From: Butyrivibrio sp. AE2015
Lineage (GTDB): Bacteria; Bacillota; Clostridia; Lachnospirales; Lachnospiraceae
Length of the DNA: 64,000 nucleotides
Direction of reading: 5' to 3'
Assembly (NCBI RefSeq): GCF_000420825.1
Contig: NZ_ATVR01000020.1
Location: 1 to 64,000 of the forward strand
This document shows positions 1 to 631 of the stretch, one piece after another; position 1 is the stretch's first letter, and each line of letters opens with the position of its first letter. The notes under the pieces are model-generated. The model was given only the letters and a program-made list of their open reading frames with translations. It was not told the DNA's origin and did no database searches. Made by a program: the position numbers and the translations under genes.

Positions 1-280
1 AAAGATGCTCGCGTCATGTCGAAAAAGATGTACAAGACATGAATAATAGAATAAATGCCAGATCTCATGCCAAACGATTCTATTCAAGGCATGAATTATG
101 AGAAAAAATCTGACACAGCATGTCGAATTACTAAGCAAAGACATGGTATCTGAGTCAAAATCACTAACAACATGTCTGAACCACTATACAAAGCATGTGA
201 TACTTGCAAAAAATCTCCAAATCATGTCAGAAGCCTCTGCACAAGGCATGAAAATCGAAAAAAAACTCTCGCAGCATGCT
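1..280 (+). repeat. Tandem array of inverted CATGTC/GACATG hairpins, 52-bp period
   Basis: CATG occurs at 15, 38, 66, 90, 119, 142, 171, 194, 223, 247 and 275, so spacings alternate 23-24 and 28-29 and the unit is 51-53 bp. Each unit is a left arm CATGYC, a 15-16 nt variable loop ending in CAA or AAA, a right arm RRCATG, and a 24-25 nt A-rich linker. Arms pair: units 1 and 3 are CATGTC/GACATG and unit 2 is CATGCC/GGCATG (both arms changed). Unit 5 (CATGTC/GGCATG) needs one U-G wobble; unit 4 (CATGTC/AGCATG) needs one wobble and has one mismatch. The wobbles fit a plus-strand RNA. Bases 1-14 resemble the end of a linker, so the array continues beyond the window. A 52-bp period is not a multiple of three, so it is not a coding repeat. 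Function unknown. Confidence 0.75.
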
Positions 281-324: not shown

Positions 325-364
325 CTGATTCAATTTCAAACGCCCCTACTGTTCTCGGAATCAG
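325..364 (+). other. Inverted repeat CTGATTC/GAATCAG
   Basis: A perfect 7-bp inverted repeat (325-331 and 358-364) lies between the hairpin array and the rod-like element. It could be another helix of the same RNA. At this length chance is not excluded. Confidence 0.25.
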
Positions 365-397
365 AGTCAGAGGCCCTTATACCTAGCCACACCGAAG

Positions 398-536
398 GTG
401 CTTGCCATTGACGGGTTCTGGGGAAAACGCTACAATGCTGAATCCGACGGTGCATGAATCTAACTACTGTTCCCATCATCCTCACCGTCGGCAGAGCCTG
501 CAGGGCGTTTTCCTCAGGTTCAGTCAATGGTGGCGC
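398..536 (+). ncRNA. Candidate rod-like structured RNA
   Basis: Nested inverted repeats build a rod. CCATTGAC (405-412) pairs with GTCAATGG (523-530). 414-430 pairs with 505-521 over 17 positions with one mismatch if G-U is allowed. CCGACGGTG (444-452) pairs perfectly with CACCGTCGG (483-491) around a 30-nt loop. Between the helices is a symmetrical bubble of 13 nt per side (431-443 and 492-504), whose 3' side can form a small GCAG/CTGC hairpin with the last base of the inner stem. Every wobble is G-U on the plus strand and would be A-C on the minus strand, so plus is the likely transcribed strand. Helix-bubble-helix order resembles 6S RNA, but I recognise no 6S sequence. A transposon-like inverted repeat is the alternative. 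Confidence 0.45.
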
Positions 537-569
537 ATGGAGCCAGCTACTTACGCATATACAAAGGAA

Positions 570-610
570 GATGATTCTGATGTATGCTAATTGCAAACAT
601 CAGAATCATC
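570..610. terminator. Perfect 14-bp stem-loop downstream of the glp operon
   Basis: GATGATTCTGATGT (570-583) and its exact complement (597-610) enclose a 13-nt loop. It lies 21 bp beyond the stop of the last glp-operon gene, so it may end minus-strand transcription. It could equally end a plus-strand RNA from the array region. Neither side has a good T-tract, so it may act as a 3'-end-stabilising or Rho-assisted structure. Confidence 0.5.
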
Positions 611-631
611 TCACTAATCTACAGTCTTATA

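Follow-up and report, generated by a model that had tools for sequence, protein, structure and literature searches.

The window analysed here, the whole stretch of 64,000 nucleotides from Butyrivibrio sp. AE2015, begins in a row of short CATG sites of alternating orientation, and the question raised by this locus is whether these sites are the arms of RNA hairpins or are recognised as double-stranded DNA, and which gene they might serve. That the window holds a real CATG array is confirmed. As the sequence-only reading of this DNA had described, eleven alternating CATG sites start at positions 15, 38, 66, 90, 119, 142, 171, 194, 223, 247 and 275, with successive gaps of 23, 28, 24, 29, 23, 29, 23, 29, 24 and 28 bp. 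Dinucleotide shuffles of positions 1-290 gave a mean of 2.8 CATG and a maximum of 8, so that eleven was never reached in 2000 shuffles, and the remainder of the window has 1.15 CATG per 290 bp. Tandem Repeats Finder at a score of 50 gave no report on the window array, in which the short sites alone repeat and the spacers do not; the description of variable loops between constant arms is likewise correct for this array. The individual sites are as follows.

Positions 1-290, no strand assigned: orphan array of alternating RRCATG / CATGYY candidate recognition sites, with a 52-bp period, continuing leftward to a twelfth CATG
Positions 15-20, minus strand: site 1, CATGTC
Positions 36-41, plus strand: site 2, GACATG
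Positions 66-71, minus strand: site 3, CATGCC
Positions 88-93, plus strand: site 4, GGCATG
Positions 119-124, minus strand: site 5, CATGTC
Positions 140-145, plus strand: site 6, GACATG
Positions 171-176, minus strand: site 7, CATGTC
Positions 192-197, plus strand: site 8, AGCATG (weak)
Positions 223-228, minus strand: site 9, CATGTC
Positions 245-250, plus strand: site 10, GGCATG
Positions 275-280, minus strand: site 11, CATGCT (weak)

Positions 1-290 are the interior of a dispersed, non-coding, MITE-like mosaic element of about 0.7 kb with inverted ends, the right-hand part of which also lies in the window together with a hairpin that follows it.

Positions 341-545, plus strand: right end of this mosaic element, a conserved segment whose inverted counterpart is the left end
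Positions about 404-534: long imperfect hairpin within the right end, read by eye
Positions 569-611, no strand assigned: self-complementary hairpin just beyond the element's right end, matching itself inverted

When positions 1-400 were used as a query, 42 places were found in the same genome. All 19 places with array sequence lie no more than about 110 bp from a contig end, indicating that the assembly breaks inside the repeat, and the remaining places lie within about 1 kb of a contig end with the exception of C28:3340. The orphan arrays partly account for where the assembly of this genome breaks. In 13 places (C20, C9, C49, C38, C19, C4, C33, C53, C48, C22, C27, C30 and C60) the array runs into the conserved right end, and in six (C55, C16, C26, C47, C2 and C52) parts of the array are read from the opposite side; since one copy may have been counted from both sides, the safe figure is at least 13 copies. 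The earlier observation that the array runs off the window was borne out, as the C9 copy has one further CATG to the left (12 in total), and leftward extension through other copies brought the left end of the element into view in C55, C47, C2 and C28; in C55 this end starts some 170 bp to the left of window position 1. Just outside the element, the left flank of the G000:C2 copy (L023) contains CATGTTGA-like direct repeats (TTTCATGTTGACTTTGG, TTACATGTTGATTTTTGG), and several copies of the carrier appear to have received insertions of what we take to be IS3-like elements, ending in AGTAGTTTA.

Positions 1-640 of the window are matched in 15 of the 79 genomes of the genus, the source genome included, and beyond that genome it is the right end that finds matches, not the array; plasmid and phage records gave no match to the same query. 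In ten loci of genomes G067 and G008 the right end is found as inverted pairs about 0.45-1.2 kb apart. The interiors of these elements contain different arrays of short inverted motifs from one element to another, the array types being CATGTC, TTATCCTAC or TTATCCCAC, TTACCC, TAGGTCATG and a bipartite GGTGGC/GCTATATGCCC, and two types may be joined, as with the CATG array and a TTACCC (GGGTAA) array on contig C26 and the TTATCCCAC and TAGGTCATG sites on contig C11. The element family as a whole is large, dispersed and non-coding, with long inverted ends and nested hairpins (window 341-625; loci L063-L081 of G008, G052, G067 and G021).

A search of the source genome with the unit pattern identified a second array, at C41:22443-22626, which has the motif CATGTC/GACATG and gaps of 23-24 and 28-29 bp as in the window, with 14 CATG in the stretch. 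Only one 12-bp match is shared between this array and the C9 copy of the window array, and the spacers are unrelated. The C41 array lies directly upstream of a gene for a nuclease-like protein of 265 aa, for which Pfam and NCBIfam have no match. The linked gene, which the sequence-only reading had placed beyond its view, lies elsewhere in this genome and is of the PD-(D/E)XK nuclease type. Three further homologues of the C41 protein are encoded in this genome. The C40 gene has an alternating TGCAGTA/TACTGCA array upstream and the C13 gene an upstream GGGTGCAGTT/AACTGCACCC array consisting of two inverted blocks with 52-bp steps; beside the C38 gene, which is shorter and looks 5'-truncated, no array is visible. 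The motif caller gave chains of only 2 at both C41 and C13. At C41 this is because the palindromic CATG core confuses the orientation, and sites there were then counted exactly; at C13, as in its relatives L205 and L210, it is because the sites form two inverted blocks without simple alternation. Arrays of the C13 type (L115, 3290-3610; L205; L210) are characterised in general by inverted blocks with 52-bp steps, strict alternation being absent.

The association of gene and array extends well beyond this genome. A scan of genome_contigs with one genome per species (84,980 species) gave at least 583 pattern matches, of which at least 530 encode relatives, and the survey set consists of the best 80 loci of these relatives. 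Hosts of family matches are Butyrivibrio, Pseudobutyrivibrio, Lachnospira, Oribacterium and other Lachnospiraceae. The family is present in 70 of the 79 genomes of the genus (43 of the 47 good ones), with 1-11 matches per positive genome, and a search across the order at E 1e-20 was positive in 63 of 294 genomes, which belong to 31 of 145 genera. A motif finder was applied to 75 of the 80 loci, five with less than 300 bp upstream having been dropped. A chain of at least 7 alternating sites was found upstream in 56 of the 75, as against 0 of 225 dinucleotide shuffles, and no chain of 7 in the other 19. Downstream regions had a chain in 4 of 71 cases, and two of the four (L165, L169) bear the motif of their own upstream array. 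An earlier k-mer survey, in which three loci with short upstream sequence were dropped, had found arrays in 54 of 77 loci. When intergenic regions of at least 300 bp were compared at the same loci, arrays were present in 34 of 53 directly upstream and in 9 of 73 elsewhere (p 1e-9); for eight of the nine the upstream motif had been called and looks identical, three being parts of the upstream array itself and five second arrays of that motif. Second arrays of the same motif downstream of the nuclease gene are seen at L163, L165, L166, L169 and L191. In a wider independent sample of 20 genes from 20 genomes of the order, a chain was found in 8 and no chain of 7 in 12, compared with 0 of 100 shuffles. 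The link between gene and array is broad but not universal, and the sequences show that genes of this family are usually preceded by an array of a single short motif whose orientation as a rule alternates.

In the surveyed arrays the conserved sites are about 6-8 bp long and occur in either orientation, with site-to-site distances of 15-66 bp. Across the 56 arrays the median is 12.5 sites, the median span 330 bp, and the gene-side end is separated from the start codon by a median of 46 bp. From locus to locus the motifs vary widely, also among relatives. Clustering of 365 neighbour ORFs gave no general partner, the commonest cluster, which we take to be guaA-like, covering only 14 of the 80 loci (L118, L122, L124, L127, L132, L145, L148, L149, L155, L158, L161 and L162 among them). 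This neighbour lies upstream of the nuclease gene, at about 1.7-2.7 kb in the ten loci shown, and the array motifs of these loci differ, which suggests both that the recognition word has been rewritten at a fixed locus and that the locus has descended vertically.

The family protein of about 265 aa is predicted to consist of two long helices with a beta-hairpin between them, followed by a PD-(D/E)XK / EDxHD-like domain (predicted structure with mean pLDDT 92). Residues 147-264 align best among nucleases, by Z, with the catalytic domain of the homing endonuclease I-Bth0305I (3r3p; Z 8.7, rmsd 2.9, 90 of 98 aligned), although a Z of that size may, by the tool's own note, reflect a common arrangement; the same residues match Bax1 with Z 8.3. 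The first Foldseek row is chain B of the XPB-Bax1 complex (E 0.0026), none being at 0.001 or better. Four residues, E161, D192, E207 and H208, are the same in all 54 sequences compared, and the patterns used to search for the family span the E161 region and not D192-H208; catalytic activity has therefore probably been kept. A conserved acidic active site and a predicted alpha-beta fold place the family within the PD-(D/E)XK superfamily, and a PADLOC PD-(D/E)XK model matches three of the four proteins of the source genome at E 7e-5 to 0.002. The best PDC-S68 model of PADLOC matches all four at E 5e-23 to 4e-28; PDC-S68 and PDC-S69 have a similar C-terminal nuclease domain, but the PDC-S68 models span about 1200 positions, of which only the last 120 or so match. 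Searches with single family members gave scattered weak Pfam matches, and a sequence search of the PDB gave one weak coiled-coil match (E 0.14). For the N-terminal domain no clear solved or DNA-binding relative was found (Foldseek E of 0.4 at best; highest Z 9.0, at an rmsd of 10), and since its matches are mostly coiled-coil no fold is named for it. The likeness to I-Bth0305I is confined to the catalytic domain: here no intron or split target gene is seen, the N-terminal domain is unlike, and an array of sites stands beside the gene.

Motif and protein diverge together. Over the 56 arrays motif similarity rises with protein identity, from a median of 0.34 below 30% N-terminal identity to a median of 0.97 for the five pairs above 80% identity. 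With the identity of the rest of the protein removed, a sliding window gave one sharp peak of co-divergence, at residues 31-55 (0.265 for pairs less than 50% identical, where 95% of permutation maxima were below 0.121; p 0.005, 200 permutations), with weaker rises at residues 156-180 and 236-250. In the predicted structure residues 31-55 are the beta-hairpin between the two long helices. The arrays are very probably phased cognate sites of this nuclease family, and the CATG array itself is likely to be one such row, recognised as double-stranded DNA by a sequence-specific nuclease whose family is apparently undescribed.

The survey also bears on whether such sites act as RNA or as DNA. The arm changes named in the sequence-only reading are present in units 2, 4 and 5, but as evidence of pairing they fail across many arrays. 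Differences between short-gap arms in the 56 arrays are of G-U type in 82 cases and of A-C type in 82 on the sense strand, so that no excess of wobble is seen, and arms mismatch at a rate of 0.110 where the short gap separates them, compared with 0.111 for the long gap and 0.119 for sites far apart. This equality of mismatch across gap classes argues against selection for pairing, which should separate them. A phased protein-binding array with a period of about five helical turns had been put forward as well, and the commonest period is indeed 52 or 53 bp in 41 of the 56 arrays. The distances between sites of like orientation, 157 distinct values counted per array, cluster at 52-53, 62-63, 72-74, 83-85 and 93-95 bp, and for the pooled distances, which are not independent values, 10.5 bp is the best-fitting period between 8 and 14. 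A test with one step per array (26 arrays, values hand-picked, one large homologous group counted once) gave zero-phase at 10.5 bp with p 0.012, but its resultant is larger off the helical repeat (0.47-0.51 at 12-13 bp as against 0.36 at 10.5), and the wider sample favours 10.0 (0.71) over 10.5 (0.63). It is therefore chiefly the pooled distances that carry the helical reading. Taken together, the pairing, distance and mismatch tests speak for double-stranded DNA over RNA, and the interpretation offered by the sequence-only reading is partly supported.

Sites and spacers change at different rates. In 27 pairs of related arrays, 280 of 2328 site positions differ (12%) as against 2658 of 5819 spacer positions (46%), 21 of the pairs coming from seven loci of one motif group; L145 and L183, two loci of the groups intended for this comparison, are absent from the 56 arrays and so lie outside it. 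Gap columns number at most 16 in 21 of the 27 pairs and 17-106 in the other six. In the near-identical pairs L159/L160 and L161/L162 sites and spacers are equally different, and the spacers of two close pairs differ by 29 substitutions in 244 with no gap columns (L165/L169) and by 30 in 297 with one gap column (L180/L185). Near nuclease genes the sites are thus maintained while the spacer letters drift, unlike what would be seen with acquired spacers or guides. Among the copies of the window array, 0 of 473 CATG cells have changed, as against 12 of 471 cells for the two letters beside CATG and 40 of 2037 spacer cells; when columns are counted instead, the difference between CATG (0 of 44) and spacers (11 of 188) is not significant. 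These counts hint at a constraint in the orphan copies that may be confined to the CATG core.

On the evidence of motif and spacing, orphan arrays correspond to arrays beside nuclease genes for three motif types. The TTATCCTAC sites of a G008 element are spaced 29 and 44-45 bp apart, like those of the G008 nuclease array at C34 (L217); TTACCCG arrays in elements of the source genome have gaps of 27 and 24, like the G052 nuclease array at C76 (L220); and the window array has the gaps of the C41 nuclease array. When orphan arrays were ranked blind against 104 motif models, the L070 array ranked L217 first (0.87, the next being 0.61), the C26 and C60 arrays ranked L220 first (0.94 and 0.78), and the TTATCCCAC array of C18 ranked L217 first (0.73). 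For the window, of which the caller used only six sites, C41 came third (0.70) after L176 (0.77) and L116 (0.74); the L116 protein and the C41 nuclease are 63% relatives, and the gaps of the L176 and L116 arrays are different. Nothing above 0.60 was found for the TAGGTCATG array, and GGGCATATAGC-type arrays were traced to no nuclease. The TAGGTCATG pattern is found in 6 of the 79 genomes, a match in G004 looking like a lone hairpin behind a gene, and its orphan arrays have no nuclease within up to 1.5 kb on each side in 11 loci (8 places). These arrays, at G067:C11:24753-25013 and elsewhere (L243), have gaps of 29 and 45 bp and a 74-bp period, with 26 pattern matches in G067.

The mechanism that we propose begins with the nuclease itself, which would bind the sites of its array through the beta-hairpin, probably as dimers on inverted sites that stack cooperatively along one face of the helix. 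As the array ends a median of 46 bp before the start codon, such binding would shut off the nuclease's own promoter and keep the enzyme parked at the array; that autorepression and parking are the main role is plausible but somewhat doubtful. In 110 kb of host DNA no depletion of the array motifs is seen, and cutting at single sites is therefore improbable. With the window-type orphan array carried at least 13-fold, there would be many remote putative binding sites for the C41 nuclease, whether as decoy, substrate or passenger, and orphan arrays may compete for the nuclease or serve as its substrate. In operator and iteron arrays, which lie near promoters with sites at whole helical turns, binding is cooperative and helically phased; what differs here is that the presumed binder is a nuclease and that the motifs vary widely between loci. 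In the wider reading, for which we see nearly an even chance, several nuclease-array pairs per genome would be rapidly rewritten DNA addresses in which the beta-hairpin and a word of 6-8 bp change together, a phased array of roughly 7-22 sites would keep the enzyme off at home, and mobile non-coding elements would gather the arrays of several nucleases, interfering with them, feeding on them or being shaped by them. If true, it would add a new type of system for controlling nucleases or for conflict, and its DNA-reading hairpins would form a natural catalogue open to re-coding; a common group of gut and rumen bacteria would possess it, often as several copies in one genome, with no name in Pfam or NCBIfam and with a readable target array beside the gene. 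With the 56 natural protein-motif pairs from one survey, the code by which the beta-hairpin recognises its motif could be put to a direct test. A further question raised is what benefit mobile elements might draw from carrying such arrays. No description of a nuclease-array system of this kind was found in the literature searched, most subscription papers being outside its scope; as far as the families tested here go, the earlier statement that no known class fits is borne out.

Among known cases REP/BIME repeats and the REP-associated tyrosine transposases (RAYTs) come closest, although enzyme class and hairpin property differ. There, regularly spaced alternating repeats have dispersed cognate copies, and repeat and nuclease co-diverge (PMC2817692). 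The same co-divergence and dispersed cognate copies are found in the nuclease-array family. RAYT is a tyrosine transposase (IS200/IS605-like, HUH/Y1), while here a PD-(D/E)XK-type fold with invariant acidic residues is predicted and no Y1 transposase is present among the 25 of 51 Pfam families listed for 54 members; and REP repeats are pairing palindromes, while here there is no pairing signal and the array is helically phased and mostly upstream only. A selfish pair of this kind, in which the nuclease mobilises its cognate arrays and the orphans are non-autonomous offspring, would explain the many copies of cognate-type orphan arrays and the co-divergence of protein and motif, and would suit a nuclease domain resembling the catalytic domain of a homing endonuclease. 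However, matches between the window array and the C41 and L116 arrays are no longer than 12-13 bp, the orphans lie inside a larger element with inverted ends of its own, the right end of which is absent from the nuclease loci searched, and the guaA-like neighbour common to 14 loci with differing motifs suggests vertical descent. We regard such a selfish pair as unlikely.

A system of defence and counter-defence, in which the nuclease attacks DNA with multiple phased sites and mobile mosaic elements carry the arrays of several nucleases as decoys, would be in keeping with the joined arrays of C26 and C11, with the resemblance of the C-terminal domain to the ends of the candidate defence proteins PDC-S68 and PDC-S69, and with the wide variation of motifs among relatives. 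It is rendered rather improbable by the absence of motif depletion in host DNA and by a search of viral_contigs, which gave only 8 relatives, all matching the C-terminal part.

Less probable still is that the sites are subterminal transposase-binding repeats of an insertion sequence or a passive minisatellite within a MITE. The array does lie inside a MITE-like element, and the letters flanking CATG have changed as often as the spacers in the window copies. A model for such repeats is provided by G021 (L079, L080, L081), where an IS30-family transposase element of about 1.93 kb, partly tandem, has several copies of its terminal motif, GTGGAATTTA, repeated at its ends, and contains, on the downstream side of its transposase gene, a relative of window 349-545 that does not form both of its ends. 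Against this, C41 has the same motif and spacing beside a nuclease gene, and CATG itself is unchanged in the window copies where spacers are not, a difference that is not significant by column. Transposases of insertion sequences were considered as binders and set aside: two full IS30-family genes were read, with no adjoining CATG array, and the third match in the genome is a C24 fragment.

A type III toxin-antitoxin-like pair, with the upstream repeats as RNA antitoxin of an endonuclease toxin, would account for repeats directly upstream of a nuclease gene and near its start codon, but is very improbable given that whole units are not repeated directly in tandem, that the spacers are free, that no RNA pairing signal is seen and that the best fold matches of the nuclease domain are DNA nucleases. 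A CRISPR- or TIGR-like guide or memory array, with spacers acquired or encoding guides for the nuclease, is hardly credible. Short repeats, variable spacers of near-constant length and an adjoining nuclease gene do recall TIGR-Tas, which likewise combines short repeats and fixed-length spacers with an adjoining effector gene, and which has two distinct alternating repeats, 9-nt spacers and a Nop-domain protein (PMC12045711). Here there is a single inverted motif rather than two direct repeats, the spacers are longer and differ between close relatives by substitutions (L165/L169, L180/L185), and neither a Nop nor a Cas domain is present among the 25 of 51 Pfam families listed (54 members, E up to 1). 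CRISPR-Cas arrays have repeats of at least 25 nt and acquired spacers, as against sites of about 6-8 bp and drifting spacers here.

The array of RNA hairpins, with arms that pair in a transcript and are maintained through compensatory change, has in its favour the inverted arms and the change of both arms in unit 2, but can be given scarcely any probability with wobble types equally frequent, mismatch across the short gap not below that across the long gap in 56 arrays, distances near helical turns and no match of Rfam covariance models at gathering score in the 64 kb. The three Rfam matches in positions 1-1200, far below the gathering score, all fall on a hairpin at 556-624 (best E 0.005).
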